Shown here piece by piece: positions 9,917 to 60,077 of a stretch of 64,000 bases of DNA. Numbering within the stretch: the first letter of the stretch is position 1; every line of letters begins with the position of its first letter. Below the pieces are notes generated by a model. That model had not been told where the DNA came from, searched no databases, and was given only the letters and a program-made list of their open reading frames with translations. Both the position numbers and the translations under genes were made by a program. Source of the stretch: SAR202 cluster bacterium bin22 (GTDB lineage: Bacteria > Chloroflexota > Dehalococcoidia > Lucifugimonadales > UBA3495); contig MPMM01000013.1 in assembly GCA_002238505.1 (NCBI GenBank), positions 1-64,000 of the forward strand, in the 5' to 3' direction.

Positions 9917-10540
9917 ATGGCCACACCACCTACATCGGGCGACGGCGCCGCCCTGCAGGAGCCCCTTACGAGGTTTGAACGAGACCGCCATCCGGAGGCT
10001 GAACATGCCCTGAAAATCCTAGAGGCGGCCGCCAACGTCAACGAGCTCACCGGAACCCTGATGTTCCCCGGGGCAACCCCCTACGCCCACCGGGCCCTGA
10101 AAGCCTGCCTGGAGCAGGCGGAGACGAAGACCCGAGACCACGGACTATCTGTGGTGTCCTTCGACATCGACCTGACGCTGGCCACCGGCGAGCAGGACGA
10201 AGAGGGCCTGGTCCTGATAGACCCGGCGGAGATCTCCCGGCTGCAGGCCCTGGGCTATATCGCTGGAACCTGCTCCGACCGCGAGCCCTCGGACCAGCTG
10301 AGGCTGATGGAGACCCTGGGGCAGAGCCCCAACTTCGCCATCCCCAAGGAGCTGCTGGAATGGGCCAGAAGGCTCCTGCCCGGCACCATGCACCTGCACG
10401 TTGGCGACGACCCCCAGCGCGACAGGGCCGTCGCCCTGGCCGCCGGCTGGAATTACCAGACGCCCGGAGACTACACGCGCCGCGCCGCCAGCGGCCGCCG
10501 CCAAGCGAAACTTCCCCGACAGGAGAGAGAGACACCTTGA
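9917..10540 (+). CDS. HAD-like hydrolase
   Basis: 207 aa, ATG 9917 after AGGAAAGGAAA. HAD motifs in order: SFDIDLTLA with D83 and D85 (nucleophile and general acid), TCSDRE with S120 (motif II), and HVGDDPQRDRAVAL with D164/D165 and D169 (motif IV). The N-terminal 75 residues are helical and not part of the core. The motif III lysine is plausibly K144 or nearby. Predicted phosphatase-type hydrolase; substrate unknown. Its TGA overlaps the TTG start of the Rieske gene. Confidence 0.7.
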   Translation: MATPPTSGDGAALQEPLTRFERDRHPEAEHALKILEAAANVNELTGTLMFPGATPYAHRALKACLEQAETKTRDHGLSVVSFDIDLTLATGEQDEEGLVLIDPAEISRLQALGYIAGTCSDREPSDQLRLMETLGQSPNFAIPKELLEWARRLLPGTMHLHVGDDPQRDRAVALAAGWNYQTPGDYTRRAASGRRQAKLPRQERETP

Positions 10541-11160
10541 GCACAAGACCCGAGACCCAGGCCGGACCGGAACCGATGGAGCTGGGCGGGCTGTACACCG
10601 TTCCCCACGTCCGGGCCGTCTGGCCCGCAAACACCCCAAACTGGGTTCCGGTGCTGGGCCCCAGGCATAACGACGCCGAGATAATCAACTTCAAGCCGGA
10701 GCATTTCCATATAGACTTCCGGTTCGTCACCGACCAGATGCTGGCCGACGCCGAGGCCCTGGTGCCCACCGGCTCCATCTACGCCATCAGCTGGGTATAC
10801 CAGCAGGTGATCGCCTCCCTGGCGCCCGAAATCGACGACGACGTCCTGGCCCGCCTGACCCCGAAGGGGGAACTGGTCGAGCTGCACACCATGAAGCCGC
10901 TGCAAGCGCCCACGGAGAGCTGGTACCAGTTGCTGCCGGCGAAGTACCGACGGGTCTACCCCAACCATCCGACCTACCTGCTGCCCTGGATGAAGGAGCT
11001 AGAGAAGGCCTACGCCGACTGCCGCCTGGGGCCCGATTTGAAATGCCCCCACCGGGGCACCGACCTGAGCGGGCTGGAGGTGAAAAACGGCAACCTGACC
11101 TGTCCCCTTCACGGCCTCACCTGGAGAGTCAAGACCGGCCGGCTGGAGCCCAGCCCCTGA
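10537..11160 (+). CDS. Rieske-type [2Fe-2S] protein, paralogue of the 40593 gene
   Basis: 207 aa, TTG start at 10537 whose TTGA overlaps the upstream TGA. The C terminus holds the Rieske site: C170-P-H172-RG, 16 residues, C189-PLH192-G, the standard C-x-H / C-x2-H ligand set. About 160 residues of unknown fold precede it and align with the protein at 40593 (W-PV-GP-H-DAE, H-HID-RF). No transmembrane anchor and no oxygenase catalytic domain, so it is probably a soluble electron carrier or redox-sensing protein. A Rieske cluster on a region of this type is unusual. Confidence 0.75.
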   Translation: MSTRPETQAGPEPMELGGLYTVPHVRAVWPANTPNWVPVLGPRHNDAEIINFKPEHFHIDFRFVTDQMLADAEALVPTGSIYAISWVYQQVIASLAPEIDDDVLARLTPKGELVELHTMKPLQAPTESWYQLLPAKYRRVYPNHPTYLLPWMKELEKAYADCRLGPDLKCPHRGTDLSGLEVKNGNLTCPLHGLTWRVKTGRLEPSP

Positions 11161-18281: not shown

Positions 18282-19325
18282 ATGGCAGAATTTGAAGTAA
18301 AAGTATACCGGGCCCGCATCGAGGAGCACCCCTTTGCCGACGCCATCGAGCTGATGCGGATCGGCGACTACCGCTCGGTGGTCAGAAAGGGCCAGTTCCA
18401 GGACGGAGACCTGGTCGCCTACCTGCCCGAGCAGTCCATCGTCCCCGACCGCCTGCTGGAGGAGATGGGCCTGAAGGGCAAGCTGTCCGGCCCGGACTGC
18501 AACCGGATCCGCGCCGTCCGGCTGCGGGGCGTGGTCTCCGAGGGGCTGGTCTATCCCATGCCCGACGCCGCCGAGGGCGACGAGGTGGCCGAGCTGCTCG
18601 GCGTCACCAAGTACGTGCCGACGGTCCCGCCGGAACTGACGGGACAGGTCTACCACGCCCCGGGCCAGACGGTCCACTATGACATCGAGAACGTGAAGAA
18701 GTACCCCGACGCCCTGATCGAGGGCGAGGAGGTGATCGTCACTGAGAAGATCCACGGCACCCAGTGCCAGATGGGATACTACCGCGGCGAGTTCCTGGCC
18801 AGCTCCAAGCTCTACGGCGCCCATAACCAGGCGCTGGCATTGGACGAAAGCAACGACGGCAACCTCTACGTGAGGATGGCCCGGCAGTGCCGGGAGGCCC
18901 TGGCCGAGATCAACCAGGACCTGCAGCGCCGGCCCGACGGCCCCCATCCAACCTTCTACGTCGTCGGAGAAATCTACGGCCGCGGGGTCTAGGACCTCGG
19001 CTACGACAGCCCTGAGAAGCACTTCCGCGTCTTCGACGTCTACCTGGGCGAGTACCGACACGGACGGTTCCTGGAATACCAGGAGATGATCGACCTGCTG
19101 GACGGCCGCATCGATGCCGTGCCCCTGGTCTACCGGGGCCCCCACAGCCAGGAGAAGCTGCAGGAGATCACCCAAGGCCAATCGATGCTGGCAGACCACG
19201 AACGCGAGGGCGTGGTGGTCAAGACCGCCACCGAGAGGTCGGACCTGCGCCTCGACCGGATCATCCTCAAGTCGGTCTCTGAGAAGCACCAGATGCGGAA
19301 GGGCTCCACAACCGAATACCAGTAG
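18282..19325 (+). pseudogene. RNA ligase (DraRnl/DRB0094-like) with in-frame amber codon
   Basis: ATG 18282 to stop 19325 would encode 347 aa, the length of the Deinococcus DraRnl family. An N-terminal OB-like domain (residues 1-130: SVVRKGQFQDGDLVAYLPE) is followed by the adenylylation motif VTEKIHGTQ with the nucleotide-accepting Lys, then ASSKLYGAHN, VGEIYGRGV and EGVVVKTATE. At 18990-18992 a TAG interrupts GRGV-DLGYD; family members have Gln there (VQDL), so this is one step from CAG. The rest of the frame is intact and conserved, so the loss is recent, an assembly error, or read through. TAG ends many other genes here, so general recoding is unlikely. DraRnl-type ligases seal 3'-OH/5'-phosphate nicks in RNA. 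Confidence 0.75.
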
Positions 19326-39190: not shown

Positions 39191-40591
39191 ATGGACAAGA
39201 TGGAGAACCTGGGCAGCATCCTGAAGCGGATCGCCGGGACCCGCCGGGACCCCGGGCCCGGCGAGGAACCGCCGGAGAACCCGCCCCCGCCGGCCTGCCC
39301 GAAATGCGGCGACGCCGGCTGGCTGACCCGAAAGGTGGCGGTGGGACACCCGGACTTCGGCGAGGCCTTTCCCTGCAGCTGCCAGCAGCCCACCGAGAGG
39401 AAGAAGGCCGACGTCCTGCGCCGGTACAGCAACCTGGCCGGCCTGGAGTCCATAAGCCTCAGGGACACCCGCACCGAAGGGCCGAACGGCGGCGCCGCCG
39501 ACCCGGCCCGGTTCGCCAAGGCGCTGAAGGCCGCCGCAGCCTACGCCGAGAAACCCGAGGGCTGGCTGGTCCTGGACGGCCCCAGCGGCAGCGGCAAGAC
39601 CCACCTGGCCGCCGCGGTGGCCAACCGCTGCATGGAACGCGGCATGCGGGTCTACTACATCGCCGCCCCCGACCTGCTGGACCACCTGCGGGGCGCCTAC
39701 GGCCCAAACGCCGAGGTCGCCTACGATACCCTGTTCGAACAGGTCCGCAACGTCCCCCTGCTGGTCCTCGACGACCTGGCCACCCGGGACGCCTCCCCCT
39801 GGGCCGAGCAGAAGCTGGGCCAGATCCTCAACCACCGGTTCAACGGACCCCTGCCCACCGTCATCACCGTCCACGGCCCGGTGGAGGAGCTGGCCGAGAA
39901 CGTCCGAACCCGGGTCCAGGGCCTGGGCGGCGTCGCCCGGACCTTCAGCCTGGCCGACCACGGCTCCAGGCTGGCCCGGGAGCTGGGCGCCCAGCCGCTG
40001 GCCAACCTGGCCAGCATGAGCCTCCAGGCCTTTGACATAAACGCCGGCCGGACCGCGATGCAACGGGAGGCCCTGCTGGCCGCCCACACAGCCGCCAGGA
40101 GACTCGCCACCGGCGACGAGCCGCCCCACTGGCTGCTGCTCAGCGGGCCCCGGGGCTGCGGCAAGACCCACCTAGCCGCCGGCATCGAGCTGGAATGGGT
40201 CAGGCAGGGCAGGGACACCTTCCACGCCTTCGTGCCCGCCCTGCTGGACCACCTGCGCCAGACCTACGCCCCGGGCAGCCGGATCAGCTACGACGACCTG
40301 TTCCGACACATCAGGGAAGTCCCGCTGCTGGTGCTGGACGACCTGGGCACCGAGAGCCAGTCCAGCTGGACCGACGAGAAGCTCTACCAGCTCATCGTGC
40401 ACCGCCACGACCACCGGCTCCCCACCGTCGTCACCACCGTATTCACCCTGCCGGAGCTGGAGAAGATCAACGAACGGGTCGCCTCCCGGCTGGTCGACGT
40501 CAGCCTGGTTAAATACGTGGTCATGCTGGGCCCCAACTACCGGACCTTCAGCCGCACCGCCCAGGCCAGCGGCCGGAACGGAGGACAGTGA
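39191..40591 (+). CDS. Tandem DnaC/DnaI-type AAA+ ATPase
   Basis: 466 aa, ATG 39191. An N-terminal zinc knuckle (CPKCGDAGWL and FPCSCQQ) as in DnaI/DnaC-like loaders leads to two complete ATPase domains. Domain 1: Walker A GPSGSGKTHLA (from residue 130), Walker B LLVLDDLA. Domain 2: Walker A GPRGCGKTHLA (from 319), Walker B LLVLDDLGTE. Ordinary DnaC/IstB-like proteins have one domain of about 250 aa, so this looks like a duplication in one chain. Likely role: loading a replicative helicase for the element, or a transposition-helper type activity. No DnaB or primase gene is in the window. Confidence 0.85.
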   Translation: MDKMENLGSILKRIAGTRRDPGPGEEPPENPPPPACPKCGDAGWLTRKVAVGHPDFGEAFPCSCQQPTERKKADVLRRYSNLAGLESISLRDTRTEGPNGGAADPARFAKALKAAAAYAEKPEGWLVLDGPSGSGKTHLAAAVANRCMERGMRVYYIAAPDLLDHLRGAYGPNAEVAYDTLFEQVRNVPLLVLDDLATRDASPWAEQKLGQILNHRFNGPLPTVITVHGPVEELAENVRTRVQGLGGVARTFSLADHGSRLARELGAQPLANLASMSLQAFDINAGRTAMQREALLAAHTAARRLATGDEPPHWLLLSGPRGCGKTHLAAGIELEWVRQGRDTFHAFVPALLDHLRQTYAPGSRISYDDLFRHIREVPLLVLDDLGTESQSSWTDEKLYQLIVHRHDHRLPTVVTTVFTLPELEKINERVASRLVDVSLVKYVVMLGPNYRTFSRTAQASGRNGGQ

Positions 40592-40592
40592 C

Positions 40593-41300
40593 GTGGGAGA
40601 GAGAAGCAACGCCATAACTCAAGCGCCCAGGCCCCAGGACGCCAGCGGACCCCTGGTCGTGGGCCGCATCTACCAGGTGACCGAGATCCGCTCCCGGGTC
40701 CTGCAGGCCGGCAACCGCATCCAGTGGATCCCCGTCATCGGCCCCTTCCACGACGACGCCGAGTTCATCGGCTTCAGCGACCGCCACTGGCACATCGACT
40801 ACCGGTTTATCTCCAACGACCTGTACCGGGAGATGGAACACTACTGCCGGCTGAGGGCCGACCAGCATATCATCCACCCGGTCTACAACCTGGTCGTCAC
40901 CAGCGTCTGCCCCACCGGCCTCAGACCGCTGGCGCTGGACGGCTACGAGGTGGGACCGGGCCAGCAGCTGACCAACAATGACACCGGCGAGACCGTCACC
41001 GTGCCCCGCCGGACCTGGATGCGGCAGGCGCGGCGGCGCTGCCGACGTACCTATCCGCCCTACCCTTACGGCAGGCCCCAGTGGATGCCGGAACTGGAGC
41101 GGGCCTACCGGAACCACCGCCTCCAGGAGGGAAACGTCTGCCCCCACCGCGGAGCCCCGCTGGGCGGCCTGCAGGAGGACGAGAGCGGAAACGTCACCTG
41201 CCCGCTTCATGGGCTGAGATGGAACAAACACACCGGCCGCCTGGCCCCAAGACCGGCGCCGGACCGGCCAATGGAAATAGAAGAGAGGGAATTGATTTGA
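40593..41300 (+). CDS. Rieske-type [2Fe-2S] protein, paralogue of the 10537 gene
   Basis: 235 aa, GTG start 40593, one base after the ATPase stop. C-terminal cluster site C183-P-H185-RG, 17 residues, C203-PLH206-G. Shared N-terminal blocks with 10537: 'GRIYQVTEIRSRV', 'WIPVIGPFHDDAEFIGF', 'HIDYRFIS'. Its stop overlaps the next start (TTGA). Being translationally linked to a replication-type ATPase and a helical protein, it is more likely a redox-sensing or structural Fe-S protein of DNA metabolism than a respiratory one; that is inference. Confidence 0.75.
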   Translation: MGERSNAITQAPRPQDASGPLVVGRIYQVTEIRSRVLQAGNRIQWIPVIGPFHDDAEFIGFSDRHWHIDYRFISNDLYREMEHYCRLRADQHIIHPVYNLVVTSVCPTGLRPLALDGYEVGPGQQLTNNDTGETVTVPRRTWMRQARRRCRRTYPPYPYGRPQWMPELERAYRNHRLQEGNVCPHRGAPLGGLQEDESGNVTCPLHGLRWNKHTGRLAPRPAPDRPMEIEERELI

Positions 41301-42505
41301 CCGACAAGAGCCAGGACACGCTCCAGCAGCTGTGCGACCGGATCGTCGCCGAGGACGTCCCGCCCATCCTGGAGAAATACGAAAAATACGCCTACCTGCG
41401 GGTCAGGACGGCCCCCCAGCGGTCGCTGGAGCTCTTCGTCAGCCCGGCGGGACGCGCCGTATTCCGGCTGGACAGGCGCCGGGACGAGACCGTGGAAATC
41501 GTCCGCCACGCCGGCACCGAACGGTGCAACGGCGAGGGATCCATCGTCCACAGGGCCGAGGCCCACATGTGCGCCCTGGTGGAGGCCGAGCTGGCCGCCC
41601 GCGCCGCCCGCCGGGTCGACCGCAAGACCGCCACCGCCCTGCTCATGCAGCCGGCCTTCGGCCAGAGGAACCAGCCGTCGCCGCAGAAGACGCTGAACGA
41701 CCAGGCCAGAATGGTGGTCCGCAGGATAATGGCCCCGGGGCCCGGCGAGGACATGGACGCGGTGCAGGCCGCCCACCACCAGGCCGTAAACCTGCTCAGG
41801 ACCGAGTTCTTCACCCAGGAGGCCAGCGCCCTGCTCAACAAGTTCGACGGCAAGGGCACGGACTACGTGGCCAACCACAACAACGCGCTCCGCAGCGTGG
41901 AAGCCCTGGATTCCCTGCTGCGGGTCGGCGACCCGGAGGGACGGATCTTCGCAGAGGAGATGATGCACCTGCCGGCCCTGGATATGGGCATAAGGGGCAT
42001 CGACCAGCTCCGACGGGCCGTGGAGCGCTACACCGGCCTGAAGCGCCTGCAGATGGCCGTCCTGGCCCGGGACCCCTCCGGCGCCCAGGGCTGGGTGCCG
42101 GAACCCGAGAGCCTGCGGCCCGGCGCCCTGCCCATGGCCAACGCGGAACGCCGGACCAAAGCCGTCGCGGCCTGCCAGGCCCTCATCGACGCCGGTAGCC
42201 AGGAGGGCGTCCGGGCCACCGCCAGCCTGCCGGCCGGAATAATCCGCATGATCGGAGACGCCTCCGCCACCCTGGCCAAGACGCCGGGCGAAGCCCGCAA
42301 CCAGTGGCTGGCAGTCCTGCAGGCCTACCTTCAGGAGGTCGCACTAGCCATACCCGGCGAGAAGCAGCCGCCCACCGTCACCGCCCTGAACATCATCGGC
42401 CGCGCCATCATCGCCTGCCAGGAGCGGGAAATGGAGTGGCAGCACAGCAGCCTGGAACGGATGGCGGAGAACGCCCGGAGAATCCTGGACGGAGTTCCCG
42501 CATGA
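41297..42505 (+). CDS. Large helical hypothetical protein
   Basis: 402 aa, TTG start 41297 overlapping the Rieske stop. Residues 1-90 are mixed (VSPAGRAVFRLDRRRDETVE); the rest is helical and Ala/Arg-rich (ALVEAELAARAARRVDRKTA, LLRTEFFTQEASALLNKFDG). No motif recognised. The coupling to the ATPase and Rieske genes suggests a shared process, possibly replication. Confidence 0.6.
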   Translation: MTDKSQDTLQQLCDRIVAEDVPPILEKYEKYAYLRVRTAPQRSLELFVSPAGRAVFRLDRRRDETVEIVRHAGTERCNGEGSIVHRAEAHMCALVEAELAARAARRVDRKTATALLMQPAFGQRNQPSPQKTLNDQARMVVRRIMAPGPGEDMDAVQAAHHQAVNLLRTEFFTQEASALLNKFDGKGTDYVANHNNALRSVEALDSLLRVGDPEGRIFAEEMMHLPALDMGIRGIDQLRRAVERYTGLKRLQMAVLARDPSGAQGWVPEPESLRPGALPMANAERRTKAVAACQALIDAGSQEGVRATASLPAGIIRMIGDASATLAKTPGEARNQWLAVLQAYLQEVALAIPGEKQPPTVTALNIIGRAIIACQEREMEWQHSSLERMAENARRILDGVPA

Positions 42506-42639: not shown

Positions 42640-42642
42640 AAT
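42610..42642 (+). promoter_or_regulatory. Promoter: GAAAGC - 21 bp - TAGAAT
   Basis: GAAAGC at 42610-42615 in the loop of a GCCGGCGAAAGCCGGC hairpin, TAGAAT at 42637-42642 preceded by TGG, 74 bp before the TnpB-like gene. Member of the shared promoter set. Confidence 0.55.
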
Positions 42643-42715
42643 GCCGGACGGTAGCTGTGAGACCACCCGGCAAACCCAACTCAACAGACTTGCGGATACG
42701 AGCGAGGCAGAGGCA

Positions 42716-44020
42716 ATGACGACCCAGCAAGACACATTCGGCCAGGAGCCCCGGCTGTTCAACACCGTATACCAGTTCCGGGCCTATACGACCCGGCAGG
42801 GATACGAGGAGCTGGACCGCGTCCTGGCCATGCAGTGCACCCTCTACAACGCCGCCCTGCAGGAACGCCGGGACGGCTGGAAGATGGGCAGGAACCAGAT
42901 CACTTACTACAGCCAGTGCCGTGAGCTAACCGGAGTCCGGGCCGACGACGGCGAGTGGAACCAGCAGAACCGCCGACTCGCCACCGGTACCCTCAAGCGC
43001 GTGGACCTGGCCTTCCAAGCCTTCTTCCGACGGTTCAAGAGCGGTGACACCCCGGGCTACCCCAGGTTCAAGCCCCGCCAGCGGTTCAAGACCCTGACCA
43101 CCCACGGCACCGAGCCGGGAATGTTCCGGCTGGACCTGCCCAGGGACCGGGCCGCCCTCACCATCAAGGGACTCCCGCGCCTCGACATCAAGTTGAAGGG
43201 CCGCAGGCTGCCCGAGGGTCAGAAGCCCACCACCATCATGATCACCCGGCGCGGCCGCCGCTGCACGGTGTCGCTGGGCTTCATGGTCCCCAAGGAGGAG
43301 CTGCCGCCCAACGGACGCGCCGTCGGGCTGGACATGCGGATGGGCATAGCCCGGGTGGTCACCAGCGACGCCGAATACTGGGACCGGAGGGAAAGGGACA
43401 CCAAGCCCATAAAGCGCCGGCAAAGAAAGCTGTCCCGGGCCGTCAGGGGATCAAACAAGCGGCGCAAGAAGGCGACAGCCCTCGCCAAATGCCAGTACCG
43501 GGAGCAGGTAAGCAACCGCAACGCGGTGCACCGCTTCACCACCGCAGCGGTAAGGCAGAACGAATTCATCGCCGTGGAGGAACTGGACATCAGGCAGATG
43601 ACCGGAACCGCCCGCGGCACCATCGAAAATCCCGGCACGGAGGTGCAGAGAACGGCGGACCGAAACCGCCAAGCGCTGGATCAGACCTGGGGAATGATAC
43701 GTCAGCAGCTGAGCTACAAGGCAGAATGGGCCGGCAGGCAGCTGGTGGAGGTTGACCCCGCTTACACGAGCCGGGCCTGCAGCAGGTGTGGCTACGTGCG
43801 ATCCTCGCCCCAAATTCGAACCACCTTCCGGTGCGCCGAGTGCGGGATGGAGGGCGCCGCAGCCCACAACGCCGCGGTCAACATTCTGCGCCTTGGCCTC
43901 GGCCAGGGCGAGAGCGGAGCAAAGGGCCTATGGCCTGCTCTCGACACGCCGCAGAATGTGGCAACAATCGGCGAATTGTCGCCGATGCGTGTGGAAATAC
44001 TACCGTCCGATACCGGCTGA
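42716..44020 (+). CDS. TnpB/Cas12-like protein with inactivated RuvC-III, next to CRISPR array
   Basis: 434 aa, ATG 42716 after GAGGCAGAGG. N-terminal wedge/helical region (ELDRVLAMQCTLYNAALQER), then split RuvC: D206 in AVGLDMRMG and E288/E289 in FIAVEELDIRQM. Zinc finger CSRCGYV...CAECG. The RuvC-III block reads GMEGAAAHNAAVNI: the residue aligned with the catalytic Asp (NNRDYNAALN in the TnpB at 4275) is A383. So the protein keeps the fold and zinc finger but should not cut DNA efficiently. The frame is otherwise intact and has its own promoter-like site. A CRISPR array begins 21 bp after the stop. It resembles type V-U (mini Cas12) effectors or TnpB-derived repressors; equally it could be a decayed tnpB copy inserted beside an array. 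Confidence 0.8.
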   Translation: MTTQQDTFGQEPRLFNTVYQFRAYTTRQGYEELDRVLAMQCTLYNAALQERRDGWKMGRNQITYYSQCRELTGVRADDGEWNQQNRRLATGTLKRVDLAFQAFFRRFKSGDTPGYPRFKPRQRFKTLTTHGTEPGMFRLDLPRDRAALTIKGLPRLDIKLKGRRLPEGQKPTTIMITRRGRRCTVSLGFMVPKEELPPNGRAVGLDMRMGIARVVTSDAEYWDRRERDTKPIKRRQRKLSRAVRGSNKRRKKATALAKCQYREQVSNRNAVHRFTTAAVRQNEFIAVEELDIRQMTGTARGTIENPGTEVQRTADRNRQALDQTWGMIRQQLSYKAEWAGRQLVEVDPAYTSRACSRCGYVRSSPQIRTTFRCAECGMEGAAAHNAAVNILRLGLGQGESGAKGLWPALDTPQNVATIGELSPMRVEILPSDTG

Positions 44021-44041: not shown

Positions 44042-44496
44042 GGGTAACCCCGGAAGGACAGGGATGCTCCGTTGGCGGACAGGGGTTGGAAAGCGCTCTC
44101 CAGGGTAACCCCGGAAGGACAGGGATGCTCCGTGAGCAACTTTGCAAGTGTTGGGCTCATCCTGGGTAACCCCGGAAGGACAGGGATGCTCCCTGATAGA
44201 CGAGAGCGGCGCCGAGGAGTGTCACGGTAACCCCGGAAGGACAGGGATGCTCCCGGTTGGCACTCGGCGGTGGACAAGGCCGTTCGGGTAACCCCGGAAG
44301 GACAGGGATGCTCCGAATAAGGCCCCGCTGAGACACCACCCTCAGCGGGTGACCCAGGACGGGCATGGAAGCTCCTTACGACCGGTTGGGGCAGAAACCC
44401 GGTTACAGCAACCCCTGACGGGTGAGACAACTCCCTTCGACAGCGATTGGATTCCCCCGGGAGGACCGACAACCCCGAACGGGCGAGGAATCCCCC
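44042..44496 (+). CRISPR. CRISPR array 1: five intact and three degenerate 29-bp repeats
   Basis: Repeats start at 44042, 44103, 44164, 44225 and 44286; each is 29 bp (beginning GGGTAACCCCGGAAGG, ending GGATGCTCC; the one at 44225 begins with C), separated by 32-bp unique spacers. Degenerate copies continue with the same 61-bp period at 44347, 44408 and about 44468. The GGATGCTCC end and the CCCCG...CAGGG arms resemble type I-E repeats read on the + strand. Degeneration at the right end implies the leader is on the left, inside or just after the TnpB-like gene. The last spacer (44315-44346) contains a GCTGAG/CTCAGC inverted repeat. Confidence 0.92.
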
Positions 44497-45911: not shown

Positions 45912-46471
45912 ATGAAACAATCCCGACCGGAACGAATCCTCGACCGCAGAACCCGCCTCCAGATAAAAGTCACCACGGCCGCCGTCCTGGTCATCATGAC
46001 CGCCGCGGCCGTCGCGGGCATCGCAACCGGCCCCCGACTGGAGAGCAGCCACGCCCAGGAACCCCACGGCGGCGAAGCCCAGGCCGCGAGCCAGAACGTA
46101 ACCAGGGTGGGCAGCGTACTGCACAGCACGGCCGCCCCCTGCTCTCCAAGGCCTCCTGCAACTGGGACGACTCCAACGACCTGTTCTGGACCAGCGGCCA
46201 CTCCCTGTCGTATGGATTCGCGCCGGCGCCCGACGGGTTGCGCGTGAAGCGCACCCACTATGACGAGGACGCCTACGAGAACCGGACCGTCACCTGGAAC
46301 CTGCTCAACGGGGAGGCAGAGCGGGTCGAAAACCGGGCGTAGACCTGGACCGACAAGACCAGCGACGCCGACGAGGTGCGCTACGAGTGCAGCGTCCGGG
46401 CCCTGAACGCCGACGGCGCCGAGAAGAAAGGACGCCAGTGGTCATGGCAGATGAGCTCCAAGTCCTGCTGA
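45912..46471 (+). pseudogene. Broken secreted protein gene (frameshift and amber)
   Basis: ATG 45912 after AGGAGATTAG. An N-terminal signal anchor (VLVIMTAAAVAGIATG) follows a basic start. At about 46130 the frame must shift to continue as NWDDSNDLFWTSGHSLSYGF, VKRTHYDEDAYENRTVTWNL; an in-frame TAG at 46339-46341 then interrupts ENRA-TWTDKTSD, before RYECSVRALNADGAEKKG and TGA at 46469-46471. The conserved part looks like a fibronectin type III or Ig-like repeat. Two lesions make it a pseudogene. Confidence 0.65.
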
Positions 46472-46506
46472 TACCACGAAACAAAAGAAGAAGAGAGGAA
46501 GATACC

Positions 46507-47331
46507 ATGCCACCTGTCAACCCCGCGGATCCGACCCACAACTGCGTCACCGCCGATACCCTGGTCCAGACCGACCAAGGGCCCCAGCGCGCCGCGTCAC
46601 TCGTAGGAAAGCCCTTCACCGGCCTGGTCGACGGCCGGGAATTCCCCTCAACGCCGGAGGGCTTCCGCCCCGCCGGTCGCCGCGCCGTCGTAACCCTGGA
46701 AACCGACAACGGCAACTACGTTGAGCTAACGGCGGACCATCCGGTCATGACCAAGGAGGAGAAGGGCCCCTGGGAATGGAAGGAGGCCGGATCGCTTCAG
46801 CCGCGGGACACCGTCCGGCTCCACAACCACCGCATAACCGGCCGGAAGGGCCAGACCGACGGGCTAAGGACGCTAGGCAAGGCCACGCTGGAACAGGCAG
46901 TCAACGCCATCGTCGACGACGCCACAGAGAGCATCTGGATCTACGGCCAGGCCGGCCACGCCCGCGACGCCGGAGACCGGAACGAAGCGAACCTGATCTG
47001 CCAGCAAATGCGCCGAGCCGGAATGAACCCCGTCCGGGCCGCGTCCAACGGCCAAGACAGGATATTCTTCACGGAAAGGGACCTGGCAGTAGCCAGGCTG
47101 GACACCCAGCAGGAGCGGGACAGCCAGCAGGCCGAGGACCGGCAGCGGCTGGAGGCGCCCCGGGATTACTATCCCGACGAGGACCGCGTCAAAACCATCA
47201 CCGAGGACGGGAAGAAGGACGTATACCAGGCCATCATACCGGGCGCCGACGGGTTCGACGGCAACGGCTTTTACCTGCAGATATGCGGAACAGAGGACCA
47301 GACAAAGCCATCAGCAACGGCAACCTGGTAA
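46507..47331 (+). CDS. Hint (intein-like) domain protein with degenerate C-terminal splice site
   Basis: 274 aa, ATG 46507 after GAGAGGAAG. NCVTADTLVQTDQG (Cys 13) is an intein block A start; VELTADHPVMT (about residues 72-82) is block B with the T-x-x-H pair; VYQAIIPGADGFDGNGFYLQ (about 238-257) is block F/G. The usual terminal His-Asn before the +1 Cys reads Gln-Ile (YLQIC), so branch resolution and splicing should fail, though N-terminal cleavage may persist. The insert (residues about 115-225) could be a worn homing-endonuclease region. Only 12 residues precede the domain and 14 follow, so no extein is present. Confidence 0.65.
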   Translation: MPPVNPADPTHNCVTADTLVQTDQGPQRAASLVGKPFTGLVDGREFPSTPEGFRPAGRRAVVTLETDNGNYVELTADHPVMTKEEKGPWEWKEAGSLQPRDTVRLHNHRITGRKGQTDGLRTLGKATLEQAVNAIVDDATESIWIYGQAGHARDAGDRNEANLICQQMRRAGMNPVRAASNGQDRIFFTERDLAVARLDTQQERDSQQAEDRQRLEAPRDYYPDEDRVKTITEDGKKDVYQAIIPGADGFDGNGFYLQICGTEDQTKPSATATW

Positions 47332-52470: not shown

Positions 52471-53007
52471 TTGTCAATAAGAGACCTGCAGCAAGCCGTC
52501 AGAGCAGCACAAAGGACCATCCAGGCATGGGAGAAAAGCAACACCGACCCACTAGAAGAAAGAACCCGAAGTGAGCTTATCGACCCCGTGCTGAAAGCGC
52601 TCGGGTGGCCTGTCAATTACGGGCAGCGGAGCCGGAGAAACCGCAAACCCTGCATTACCGAGTACTATCCTTATGAGGACTTCGCCTACAGAGTGGATTA
52701 CGCGATGTTCGATAATCACGGCAAAGAAGTTATCATCATCGAGGCAAAACATTTCCTGGAACACACCAAAGACCACTACCTCCAGCTCGCTGACTACTGT
52801 GACGATGCCCGCAACATGAAAGCCGTTCTCACCAATGGCGAGTACTGGAACGTCGTAGTCTTCGACCAACGAGGTATAGTCCACGAAGAAAACCCCATCA
52901 GCATCATGTGGGACAACAGCGGGGAAACTGTCGACCACCTCTACCGTCTCCTCTCCAGGGAGCACAATCGAGTAAATCCCAATAGCAGCGTCACCTGGAA
53001 GAGATAG
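52471..53007 (+). CDS. HSDR_N-like PD-(D/E)XK nuclease
   Basis: 178 aa, TTG start 52471 after AAGGAGG. The pattern of type I restriction R-subunit N-terminal domains: SELIDPVLKALGWPV, YRVDYAMFDN, EVIIIEAKHFLE (D-x(n)-E-x-K), HYLQLADYCDDARNMKAVLT and GEYWNVVVFD. The nuclease core appears complete, but there is no helicase part, so it is a stand-alone protein or an anti-phage nuclease. It lies 2.4 kb before the methylase at 55445, which suggests a once-linked restriction system. Confidence 0.8.
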   Translation: MSIRDLQQAVRAAQRTIQAWEKSNTDPLEERTRSELIDPVLKALGWPVNYGQRSRRNRKPCITEYYPYEDFAYRVDYAMFDNHGKEVIIIEAKHFLEHTKDHYLQLADYCDDARNMKAVLTNGEYWNVVVFDQRGIVHEENPISIMWDNSGETVDHLYRLLSREHNRVNPNSSVTWKR

Positions 53008-54240: not shown

Positions 54241-55457
54241 GTACCTTGTCAAGCTTGGTTTGAGTGTTTAAAGGGTGATTGACTGGTAGTGCTAATCTGT
54301 TGATAGAACGTGTTGTTGTGAGGTGATGGTGTGGTCAGGGAGAAATTTGCGGTTCGGCTGACGCCGGAGCAGCGCGACCAACTGGAGCACATGGTCCGGG
54401 CTGGGAAGAGTTCCGCCCGGGTTACCACTCGGGCCCGCATTTTGCTCAAGATCGACGAGGGCTGGTCGGCGCCCCGGGTGGCCCAGGCCTGGACGTATCT
54501 GAAGGCACGGTGTTCCGGCTCAAGCGGCGTTTCGCCGAAGATGGGTTGGAGGGGACGCTGAAGGACCGGGTCCAGGCCCACCGGTACCGGAAGCTAGACC
54601 ACCTGGAGGAGGCCCACCTGATCGCCCTGGCCTGCAGTCCGGCGCCTGAGGGCCACGACCACTGGACCCTGCGGCTGCTGGCGGACCGGATGGTGGAGCT
54701 GGGAGTGGTGGAGTCGCTAGCGCCGGAGACGGTGCGGTTGCGGTTGAAAAAAACGCGCTCAAGCCGTGGCAGAAGAAGGAGTGGTGCATCCCCAAAGTGA
54801 GCGCCGACTTTGTGGCCCACATGGAGGATGTCCTGGATCTGTATGCCGAGCCCCATGATCCCCAGCGGCCGGTAGTCTGTTTTGACGAGACCTCCACCCA
54901 GTTGCTGGCCGACACCAGGGAACCGATTCCGGCCAAGCCTGGCAGGCCCAGGCAGGAGGACTACGAATACCGGCGAGAGGGCACCCGCAATCTGTTCCTG
55001 GCCTGTGAGCCCAGGGCGGGCTGGCGCCACGTGGCGGTAACGGAGCGGCGCACCAAAGAGGACTTTGCCCGCCAGATGCAGTGGCTGGTGGATGAGGCCT
55101 ACCCCGACGTCCCCGTGGTCCGCCTGGTTCTGGACAATTTGAACACCCACAGAATGGCGTCGCTGTATGAAACCTTTCCCGCTGCGGAGGCCCGGCGCAT
55201 CGCCACACGGCTGGAATTTCACTACACCCCCAAGCATGGCAGTTGGTTGAATATGGCGGAGATCGAATTCAGCGTCTTCTCGCGCAGTTGCCTCAGGAAG
55301 CGTCTTGCCGACGAGGAATCCCTCTGCCGAGAGGTCCAGGCTCTGGAGCTGGAACGGAATCAGGCTCAAGCCGGCATCAACTGGCAGTTCACTGCCCAAG
55401 ACGCAAGGGGTAAACTACGTCGCCTTTACCCCTGTCAATCCTGATTGGTTCTGGTAC
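54241..55457 (+). mobile_element. IS630-family insertion sequence
   Basis: About 1217 bp. Ends GTACC (54241) and GGTAC (55453-55457) form the outer part of imperfect inverted repeats; TA flanks both sides (54239-54240, 55458-55459), as expected for IS630/Tc1-mariner insertions. It carries a transposase with two frame changes. Confidence 0.75.
54331..55444 (+). pseudogene. IS630-family transposase, frameshifted
   Basis: Frame 1 from ATG 54331 gives the N-terminal helix-turn-helix (RLTPEQRDQLEHMVRAGK, ARILLKIDEGW). At about 54490 one base is missing, after which FRLKRRFAEDGLEG continues in frame 2. At about 54745 an A-run (AAAAAAA) precedes a second change; frame 3 from there holds the catalytic domain: VVCFDETSTQ, RLVLDNLNTH and HGSWLNMAEIEF (the DDE triad). 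The A-run change could be programmed, but the first looks like a deletion, so the enzyme is probably dead. Confidence 0.8.
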
Positions 55458-57868
55458 TAGTAGCAAAACTAGTAGCGGCACTCTCTCTTCCAAACGCCGC
55501 GACCAATGTAGCGGACCCTGCAGTAGAACTTAAAGAGCGTCTCAAAAACTTAGAAGACGGCAGCTTATTCCAAGACGCAGGAATAGTAAACATACTCGCA
55601 GGCGATTTCTTCGCTTGGTATTTGGACGACGTTTATTGGGACGATCTAAAGCAGCCTATCGAAGCCACACTAACCACACTTCAACACGTCAACTTCGACA
55701 TCGAGCGAAAAGAACTGTCATCAGTGAGAGACCTTTTCAAGGGAATGTACGAGACATTCATGCCGAGAGCCCTCCGCCACGCCATGGGAGAGTTTTACAC
55801 ACCCGACTGGCTAGCAGCCCATGCCCTAGACAAGATCGGATGGAACCCCAATAACCAGCTACTGGATCCAACCTGCGGTACTGGAACCTTTCTCCTAGAG
55901 GCGATTAAAAGGCGCCTGATGTCACAAGAATACGACAAGGAACGGAAACCCGACACCAGAAAACTCCTTGAAGGCATATACGGAATGGACCTCAATCCGC
56001 TAGCGGTCCTCGCCGCCCGAGCATCCATCGTAGTCTTCTTATCGCCGTACATAACTCCTGAAAACCCTGTCACCATCCCAGTATGGATGGCCGACGCCAT
56101 CAATTCCTCCACGAGAACAGGTGAAAACTTCGAGCACCAGTTACTAACCGAAAAGGGACTGAAGACTTTTAAAGTACCGTCCTCTCTAGTCAACAGTGTG
56201 GAATTCCACCGCATATTTCTCTCAATCATGGAATTAATAAACACAAACATGGACCACGGAGAAATTGAACATACCATACGGGGAGAATTCAACCTGGAAT
56301 ACTTGGATTTGAAAGAAAGCCAGGCATTCGCCGAAACCATCAAGAACCTTGTAGAACTCCACGCTGAGAGCTGGGATGGCATCTGGTGTCCAATCCTAGC
56401 AGACCGCTTTACCGCGGGTGCTATCCCAAAGGTATCCCATATCGCAGGAAATCCACCGTGGGTAAAGTGGAGCCACCTCCCGCCAGAATATGCCAACTTC
56501 ATAAAAGAAAAATGCCGACGCAGCGGAGTCTTCAGTCAAGACACCTGGTTTGGAGGAATAGAATCTGATATATCAACGGTAATAACATTCGAAGCCATGA
56601 GGAAATGGCTTGAACCAGAAGGAAAACTCGCTTTCTATATTACCGGAACCATATTCTCTAATGAATCCAGTCAGGGATTCAGAAAAATGCAATACTACCA
56701 AGGACAGAGAGCGTCCATACAAGAAGTAGAAGACTTCAAAGCCATTTCGCCTTTTGAAGGCGTCTCAAACCACCCGACTTTAATCACAATACACAACGGA
56801 AGCCCGACGATTTATCCAGTCGGCTATCGCATCTGGAATCTCAAAGACAAAAAAAGGAGAGCGAAAAAGAAAACTTTTAACTCTTGGGAAGAATTCGAGA
56901 AGGCAGCCACCCCAACAAACCTACTCGCCCGACCCGTCTACGGTAGTGACGAAGGGCCTTGGCTGAAAGGAACAGCTTCCCAGCACGAACAATGGCCCCT
57001 AATTTTCAAGACCGACGAAGAACCTAATTATCTAGCCCGCAAAGGGGTCTGCACAGACAGAAACGGTATATTCTTTGTCAAAGTATCCGACCACCGTTCA
57101 CCAGGATACTGCTCAATCAGCAACAACCCATCTCTGGGAAGAAAACCAGACATTCAAGCAATGAGACGTGCAACTGTAGAGACAGACCACGTGTTCCCGT
57201 TAATCCGGGGAAAAGGAGTCAGCGCATTCCAAGCTACAGCGGACCCAGATTATTTCATTCTGCTGCCTCAGAAAACAATGCACGGAAACCCGGAGCTCCC
57301 GAGAGAAGCACGCAACACTTACCGGTACCTCACTAGGTTTAAGACAATCCTGGAAGGCAGATCAAGCTACCGTAGGTATCAAAAAGGCCAGCCTTTTTGG
57401 TCAATTTGGAACGTAGGTCCATATACCTTTGCACCCTACAAAGTGGTATGGAAGGAGATGTCAGGAAACCGCTTCCAAGCCGCATATATCAGCAACCTCA
57501 AGGACAACATATTGGGAAATAAATTACTTATTCCCGACCACAAAGTCTACTTCGTTCCAGCATGGAACGAGGACGAAGCCGCATATCTTACCGGAATGCT
57601 GAACGCTCCTTCCGTAGCGCAGGCAGTATCAGCTTACAGCCCAAACCTGAGCCTAGGGGTCAACGTAGTAGAACACTTAGCTATACCCACATACAACCAG
57701 GCAGACATCAACCACCGGCTGATAGCAGGGCTATCTAAGCACATCACAGAACGAGGTAAGGGACCCTACCCAGGAAACCTAGAATACCTGGACCACCTAG
57801 CACACAAGAATTTCAGAAATGCCAAAACAGACCAGTCCAAACTGAAGCGAAGAACATCAACAGACTAA
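55445..57868 (+). CDS. N-6 DNA methylase of a type IIG-like restriction system, 5'-truncated by IS630
   Basis: 807 codons open from within the IS630 right end; the first host-coded residues follow the TA at 55458. Helical start, then EFYTPDWLAAHALDKIGW, motif I LLDPTCGTGTFLLEA, GMDLNPLAVLAARA and motif IV IAGNPPWVKW; after that a long target-recognition-type region (SVAQAVSAYSPNLSLGVNVV near the end). This matches the methylase plus specificity halves of Eco57I-like type IIG enzymes or related defence methylases. The N-terminal part, where a nuclease domain would be, is missing. GC content is well below the window average, so the locus was acquired separately. Confidence 0.8.
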   Translation: MVLVLVAKLVAALSLPNAATNVADPAVELKERLKNLEDGSLFQDAGIVNILAGDFFAWYLDDVYWDDLKQPIEATLTTLQHVNFDIERKELSSVRDLFKGMYETFMPRALRHAMGEFYTPDWLAAHALDKIGWNPNNQLLDPTCGTGTFLLEAIKRRLMSQEYDKERKPDTRKLLEGIYGMDLNPLAVLAARASIVVFLSPYITPENPVTIPVWMADAINSSTRTGENFEHQLLTEKGLKTFKVPSSLVNSVEFHRIFLSIMELINTNMDHGEIEHTIRGEFNLEYLDLKESQAFAETIKNLVELHAESWDGIWCPILADRFTAGAIPKVSHIAGNPPWVKWSHLPPEYANFIKEKCRRSGVFSQDTWFGGIESDISTVITFEAMRKWLEPEGKLAFYITGTIFSNESSQGFRKMQYYQGQRASIQEVEDFKAISPFEGVSNHPTLITIHNGSPTIYPVGYRIWNLKDKKRRAKKKTFNSWEEFEKAATPTNLLARPVYGSDEGPWLKGTASQHEQWPLIFKTDEEPNYLARKGVCTDRNGIFFVKVSDHRSPGYCSISNNPSLGRKPDIQAMRRATVETDHVFPLIRGKGVSAFQATADPDYFILLPQKTMHGNPELPREARNTYRYLTRFKTILEGRSSYRRYQKGQPFWSIWNVGPYTFAPYKVVWKEMSGNRFQAAYISNLKDNILGNKLLIPDHKVYFVPAWNEDEAAYLTGMLNAPSVAQAVSAYSPNLSLGVNVVEHLAIPTYNQADINHRLIAGLSKHITERGKGPYPGNLEYLDHLAHKNFRNAKTDQSKLKRRTSTD

Positions 57869-59379: not shown

Positions 59380-60077
59380 GGTCTATCCCCGCGTTGGCGG
59401 GGCAGCCTCTTTTGGTCATGGCACGGAGGCCCTGTTCGACGGTCTATCCCCGCGTTGGCGGGGCAGCCAAGGGGACAATACGCAGACAGAGCCCCGGAAA
59501 GGGTCTATCCCCGCGTTGGCGGGGCAGCCTCGCCAGATGAGGCCCGTTTCGGCTCTGCAGTTGGTCTATCCCCGCGTTGGCGGGGCAGCCGATCATGTTT
59601 CCGTAGGTCCTCTTGACCATGGAGGTCTATCCCCGCGTTGGCGGGGCAGCCCCCCCCTGCTTTTAAGATCACGCCCATGCGAAGGTCTATCCCCGCGTTG
59701 GCGGGGCAGCCACAGGCCCAGGTAATCGCGCCTGGCGGCGATGAGGTCTATCCCCGCGTTGGCGGGGCAGCCAGTCTACGTGGCGCCCAACAAGATTCCG
59801 GAAAAGGTCTATCCCCGCGTTGGCGGGGCAGCCGTCAATTTCGGAACCCCTAGAGAATCCCCGATCGGTCTATCCCCGCGTTGGCGGGGCAGCCGATGTC
59901 GATCAGCTCCGTCCTGATGTGGCGGGGGGTCTATCCCCGCGTTGGCGGGGCAGCCTTGTCGATCATGTGGGAGTAACCGGCGACTACGGGTCTATCCCCG
60001 CGTTGGCGGGGCAGCCTCTTATTCTGTGGAACTCGGAGTACCTATAACAGGTCTATCCCCGCGTTGGCGGGGCAGCC
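59380..60077 (-). CRISPR. CRISPR array 2: twelve identical 28-bp repeats, type I-E-like
   Basis: Repeat starts at 59380, 59441, 59502, 59563, 59624, 59684, 59745, 59806, 59867, 59928, 59989 and 60050. Each is 28 bp (GGTCTATCCCCGCG...GGCGGGGCAGCC) and all copies look identical; eleven spacers are 33 bp except one of 32. Read on the minus strand, the repeat has the I-E form: CTGCCCCGCC, CGCGGGGATAGACC. The leader is therefore at the right, where an AT-rich segment (60078-60131) and cas2/cas1 remnants lie. Identical repeats suggest it was active recently. Confidence 0.97.

Follow-up and report, generated by a model that had tools for sequence, protein, structure and literature searches.

Gene content of the locus and its contig

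The stretch of DNA analysed here (the window, 64,000 nucleotides) comprises bases 1-64000 of the 91.7-kb contig C28 in the draft assembly of SAR202 cluster bacterium bin22 (4.39 Mb, 58 contigs). The locus of interest is a run of three co-directional genes encoding a tandem ATPase, a Rieske-motif protein and an orphan protein, and the window also holds a second Rieske-family gene and two tRNA genes, as follows:

39191..40591, + strand: tandem AAA+ (DnaC/DnaI/IstB-type) helicase-loader paralogue, 466 aa (domain, profile and structure matches)
39296..39382, + strand: zinc motif CxxC…CxC of the ATPase, residues 36-64 (C36, C39, C62, C64)
39578..39601, + strand: Walker A of module 1, GPSGSGKT, residues 130-137
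40145..40168, + strand: Walker A of module 2, GPRGCGKT, residues 319-326
40593..41300, + strand: Rieske-motif protein of PHROG_10072, 235 aa, GTG start (Pfam, PHROG and alignment)
41297..42505, + strand: orphan protein, 402 aa, TTG start (predicted mostly helical, low confidence)
10537..11160, + strand: second Rieske-family gene, 37% identical to the first, with a 4-nt overlap with the gene before it
1416-1489: tRNA-Gly (TCC), on the plasmid-like contig
2695-2771: tRNA-Arg (TCT), on the plasmid-like contig

The three open reading frames and their junctions are present as an earlier sequence-only reading of this DNA had described them: the loader stop codon (40589-40591) ends one base before the Rieske GTG at 40593, and the Rieske stop TGA (41298-41300) overlaps the TTG start (41297) of the 402-aa frame. 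There are four consecutive tight co-directional junctions in this run, through the loader, the Rieske gene, the 402-aa gene, a 45-aa ORF and a TnpB gene. The tight spacing of the trio says little in itself, because 13 of the 77 co-directional junctions in the first 48 kb of the window are 5 nt or shorter. The 402-aa protein had no relatives in 118 related genomes or the viral collection, and its AlphaFold model, mostly helical with a pLDDT of 46, was too poor for fold searching.

Domain searches across C28 identified a single-stranded DNA-binding protein (SSB), a UvrD helicase and a CHC2-type zinc ribbon protein, with a weak match to PriCT_1, and the contig additionally encodes a 1342-aa coupling ATPase of the TrwB/TraG type. 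Portal, capsid and terminase proteins were absent among the first 25 families listed for the 101 predicted C28 proteins, and the tail-fibre matches probably stem from a collagen-like protein. The tetranucleotide profile of C28 agreed with that of contig C56 at 0.99, as against 0.83 with a chromosomal stretch. The contig ends did not overlap when compared, and no replication origin was located on the element. C28 is called here a candidate plasmid- or ICE-like element on the basis of this gene content and composition. Neither dnaB nor the winged-helix gene that accompanies it at chromosomal loci (see below) was found on C28; the search for a DnaB of the element's own, raised by the sequence-only reading, thus gave no detection on this contig, and unassembled parts of the element could include one.

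Architecture and family of the 466-aa ATPase

The 466-aa protein consists of an N-terminal region with the zinc motif, module 1 at approximately residues 107-245, a linker and module 2 at approximately residues 296-452, with the Walker B motifs (VLDDL) around residues 194 and 383. The key residues of modules 1 and 2 are K136/K325, D194/D383-D384 and R241/R433, the last pair being arginine-finger-like, so that two complete Walker A/B sets and a single zinc motif, as first noticed from the sequence alone, are confirmed. Two stretches of the protein matched PF01695 (IstB_IS21; E 1.1e-29), the PHROGs profile phrog_50 (DnaC-like helicase loader) matched at 1.3e-68, and the score against NF005992 was 189.8 bits with a cut-off of 189. 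The best matches among solved structures were to Escherichia coli DnaC (6qel, 2.9e-12), a helicase loader (2w58) and Bacillus subtilis DnaI (4m4w). DnaI has a zinc-motif N-terminal region, which that of the 466-aa protein resembles, and both DnaC and DnaI carry a single AAA+ module in about 245-310 aa in all. At the sequence level the protein has the traits of a Dna[CI]-type loader, namely the PF01695 domain, intact Walker A/B sites and arginines, and a putative zinc motif, and these family matches support the original assignment as a DnaC/DnaI-type tandem ATPase with a probable role in replication. The window copy is not located beside dnaB, a position which is a trait of the chromosomal gene and not of the biochemical family.

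The tandem loader across the class

A second tandem copy, 52% identical to the window copy, is present in the same genome on contig C16 (1.1 Mb), and the tandem form is therefore not the assembly artefact that had been allowed for. Loader matches were obtained in 58 of the 59 relatives searched, the majority being full-length tandems. Across the class (Dehalococcoidia, Chloroflexota), a strong match was found in 135 of 148 genomes, mostly as full-length tandems with some single-module proteins, and in 100 of the 102 genomes of good quality. Two Walker A motifs, spaced by roughly 185-197 residues, occurred in all 62 full-length copies read, and the zinc motif was kept in 61-62 of them. The tandem form, which had seemed peculiar to this locus, is thus a trait of the class that did not arise at the window locus, judging from the breadth of these matches and the two Walker A motifs in every copy read.

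In complete core neighbourhoods the gene order was an rplI-like gene, dnaB, a DnaD/DnaB_2-type winged-helix gene (PF07261) and the tandem ATPase, where the first two are genes that we take to be rplI and dnaB from their sequence. Among the 65 loader loci with at least 900 nt of upstream sequence, a few of which are second views of one gene, dnaB lay directly upstream on the same strand in 64 and the winged-helix gene was present in 62. Linkage of the core gene to dnaB provides strong circumstantial evidence that the class-wide tandem protein is the replicative helicase loader. This linkage agrees with published work showing that dna[CI] became domesticated in Chloroflexi (Brezellec et al. 2016, PMC5109545); the genomes of that study include Dehalococcoides ethenogenes 195. 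The domesticated loader of that study and the proteins described here have the AAA^CI domain (PF01695) in common, and chromosomal copies are dnaB-linked in both; the differences are that the present loaders have two AAA+ modules per chain, a feature absent from the account in the available part of that paper, and that the window copy is fast evolving and lies on a mobile element, away from dnaB. A limited search of the literature found no description of the two-module form.

Origin of the two modules and ancestry of the window copy

When modules were placed singly in a tree, the module 1 sequences of the class came together in one group (22 rows, support 96/84) that also takes in three sequences of neighbouring families within the phylum, and the module 2 sequences of the class lay elsewhere. 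Since first and second modules group separately, the duplication of the module seems to predate the class. The loaders of family f51 (L220, L221 and L222) have one AAA+ module, which grouped with the second modules of the tandem form, suggesting that module 1 was probably lost secondarily in this family. Tandem loaders in families f64 and f93 of the phylum may represent a separate duplication. Many of the deep branches in this tree are weak.

In the whole-protein tree, the window copy nested within the clade of its own family (22 rows, 100/98) and stood beside its own genus with moderate support (82/85). Its end branch measured 1.09; that of the host's own copy was 0.14, and those of most relatives lay at roughly 0.1-0.3. 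It kept 68 of 74 near-invariant columns, and both Walker A/B sets, R433 and all four zinc ligands are among those kept. Between the window and host copies, dN was 0.42 and dS 1.1, the latter near saturation, and identity was 52% in the N-terminal region, 63% in module 1, 54% in module 2 and 35% in the linker. One other accessory copy without an adjoining dnaB was found (L044, G030:C31), in a different genome of this family, where it lies on a small contig. Loader capture may have happened more than once, as this second accessory copy groups with relatives from its own genus.

The Rieske-motif protein and its phage and plasmid family

The 235-aa protein matched PF00355 at 1.6e-8 over profile positions 41-82 of 88, which is the cluster-binding half. 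The Rieske motif proposed from the sequence is genuine, with C183xH185…C203xxH206 near the C-terminus conforming to CxH-x15-17-CxxH. An N-terminal block, H53xD55-x9-H65xH67xD69xR71F72, had no Pfam match, and it was over this block that the PHROG_10072 profile matched (4.2e-11); the gene at 10537-11160 matched that profile at 4.5e-12. The AlphaFold model (pLDDT 37) was too poor to use. Rieske ferredoxins and ferredoxin subunits (for example 8jng and arsenite oxidase AioB) have the CxH…CxxH cluster loops in common with this protein, but here the cluster-binding half alone is recognisable, and a His/Asp-rich block of another kind makes up the N-terminal half. A reading as a Rieske non-haem iron oxygenase is not supported, since Pfam and NCBIfam searches showed no recognisable catalytic domain with a 2-His-1-carboxylate site; the His/Asp block precedes the Rieske motif, where the oxygenase catalytic domain would follow it, and is not that domain.

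Four copies of the family occur in this genome: 40593-41300, 10537-11160, one on C56 (C56:15553) and a remnant on C43. The remnant (L065:3425-4236, G000:C43) is 81% identical to the 10537 gene over 42 aa and adjoins an 83%-identical Uma2-type gene; by its sequence, the C43 segment is a degenerate version of the stretch at 10.5-11.8 kb in the window. Outside this genome, a search of 118 relatives found one genome with two full-family members, of which one is broken by a stop, and the remaining weak matches were ordinary Rieske domains, which also made up most of the matches when 301 genomes of the phylum were searched with a profile. Family members are carried by plasmids of Methylorubrum, Oscillatoria and Rhizobium, the last of which is also recorded as a viral contig. 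PHROG_10072, a phage family with no function annotated, matches both the Rieske gene and its relative on the Rhizobium phage-plasmid, whereas here the family is found on a plasmid-like element in Chloroflexota and in several copies per genome.

Single-sequence searches of phage records and viral contigs for this family returned nothing usable; an initial alignment of the family was too diverged for scanning, and a smaller one yielded two contigs. The DNA pattern of the N-terminal block alone identified 68 viral stretches, and the Rieske loops followed downstream in frame in 66 of the 69 reading frames examined (which include L146, from the same contig as L172), giving about 60 phage members. 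All seven members found by similarity carry H53xD55, H65xH67xD69xR71F72 and the four cluster ligands in the alignment. The block is conserved by construction in the viral rows, and the four ligands were present in 65 of 65 aligned members, the motif being the inclusion rule for the viral ones. The pairing of block and Rieske motif is nonetheless independent of these rules, because the loops follow matches to the block pattern and the seven similarity-found members carry the block.

In one Mu-like early region a family member comes after a GemA-type gene, and a gene a few positions further on looks like Mor. Genes with methyltransferase motifs accounted for 10 of 36 immediate Rieske neighbours and, among other genes, for 17 of 260 (p 4e-4, from motifs and a rough gene caller), and a Pfam tally of the neighbours pointed in the same direction. 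As the test is rough and phage early regions often hold methyltransferases, the association is regarded as a lead, and DNA modification is the best lead to the role of the protein. A tentative and rather doubtful extension is that these phage and plasmid proteins are compact redox enzymes with two metal sites, which would oxidise or otherwise modify DNA bases in concert with neighbouring methyltransferases; the Rieske cluster would be one site and the invariant HxD-x9-HxHxD block the candidate second. PADLOC assigned no defence family to the Rieske or the 402-aa protein. These searches bring to light a widespread and barely studied phage Rieske family, and it is this family, rather than the trio of genes, that merits further pursuit.

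Function of the window copy and alternative explanations

The preferred explanation, to which a probability of about 0.68 is given, is that the 466-aa protein is a host-type tandem loader, captured by a plasmid- or ICE-like element, that loads host DnaB onto the element. It draws on what can be read from sequence, namely homology, the tandem architecture, conserved active-site residues, placement within the host family, the dnaB linkage of the core gene and the absence of detectable dnaB from C28, a contig that does have SSB, a UvrD-type helicase and primase-like genes of its own. The element would have taken up a paralogue of the tandem loader from a close relative of the present host, and the gene would be co-transcribed within its run, the Rieske and 402-aa genes being separate cargo. 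The zinc-motif N-terminal region would bind the host DnaB hexamer, and the two AAA+ modules of each chain would open the ring or deliver it onto the element's single-stranded DNA, presumably at the element's origin; three chains might crown the hexamer, or six chains in two tiers. Such a capture suggests that the published route from phage loader to host loader may run in reverse, with a domesticated host loader passing onto a mobile element. A whole bacterial class with two ATPase modules per loader chain should, moreover, alter the number of subunits that crown the DnaB ring.

The long branch of the window copy, its diverged linker (35% identity, where the N-terminal region and modules reach 52-63%) and the lack of a detectable DnaB on C28 would also fit a takeover or interference factor, one that contends with the host's own loader for DnaB and holds back replication of the host instead of loading DnaB for the element. 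This is unlikely, given that the arginine residues and the two ATPase sites have been preserved, beyond what sequestration needs, and that the context is plasmid-like and not that of a lytic phage. A transposition helper of the IstB type, for which the shared Pfam family name speaks, is hardly credible and was dropped: the protein scored 125.6 bits against the IS21-helper model, where the cut-off is 200, there is no adjoining istA-type transposase gene, and the nearest relatives are the dnaB-linked copies.

The sequence-only reading had proposed that the loader, Rieske and helical proteins may make up an unusual module for replication initiation. In such a module the [2Fe-2S] protein would sense redox state or assist DNA melting. 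The one-base and 4-nt overlapping junctions do suggest co-translation, and Rieske relatives occur in phage early regions, where phage replication genes also lie. The linkage which this predicts was looked for and is absent: no Rieske-motif gene was found near the core loaders (two chance regex matches in 519 kb), whose upstream companion is dnaB in 64 of 65 loci, an outcome that the sequence-only reading had itself named as refuting, and the neighbours of the gene at 10537-11160 and the other same-genome Rieske copies differ from those of 40593-41300. The 402-aa protein shows no similarity to the 476-aa product of the gene that follows the Rhizobium Rieske gene. With tight junctions common on C28 and the 402-aa gene lacking relatives, the module is quite improbable. 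The trio is most simply a local gene order, because loaders elsewhere have no Rieske neighbours, the neighbours of Rieske genes vary and the 402-aa gene is an orphan; the Rieske gene belongs to a phage and plasmid early-gene family unrelated to the loader and is its neighbour by chance.

Other features of the window

Downstream of the trio lies a TnpB/Cas12f-like gene (42641-44020; guided_TnpB 187 bits, PADLOC Cas12f 166 bits). After it come five 28-nt repeats, identical to one another and with an exact 61-nt period (44043-44374), and degenerate copies continue to about 44495; together they make up a candidate type V-U-like mini-array. This array had no other occurrence in the genome, and its spacers gave no convincing match among the loci compared. 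A second CRISPR-like mini-array at 59744-59895 also has a 61-nt period, and its repeat, GGTCTATCCCCGCGTTGGCGGGGCAGCC, resembles type I-E repeats. A free-standing intein/Hint-like ORF of 295 aa lies at 46444-47331 (PF14890, 4.5e-5). The consecutive ORFs of 236 and 79 aa at 18282-19325 may be one interrupted RNA ligase gene, as two C28 proteins match the RNA ligase family PF09414. The window further encodes a type IIG restriction-methyltransferase-like protein (55445-57868; PADLOC 532 bits) without the N-terminal part of the model, and upstream, past an IS-like insertion, a 178-aa ORF (52471-53007) shows a weak match to the N-terminal end of a different IIG model.
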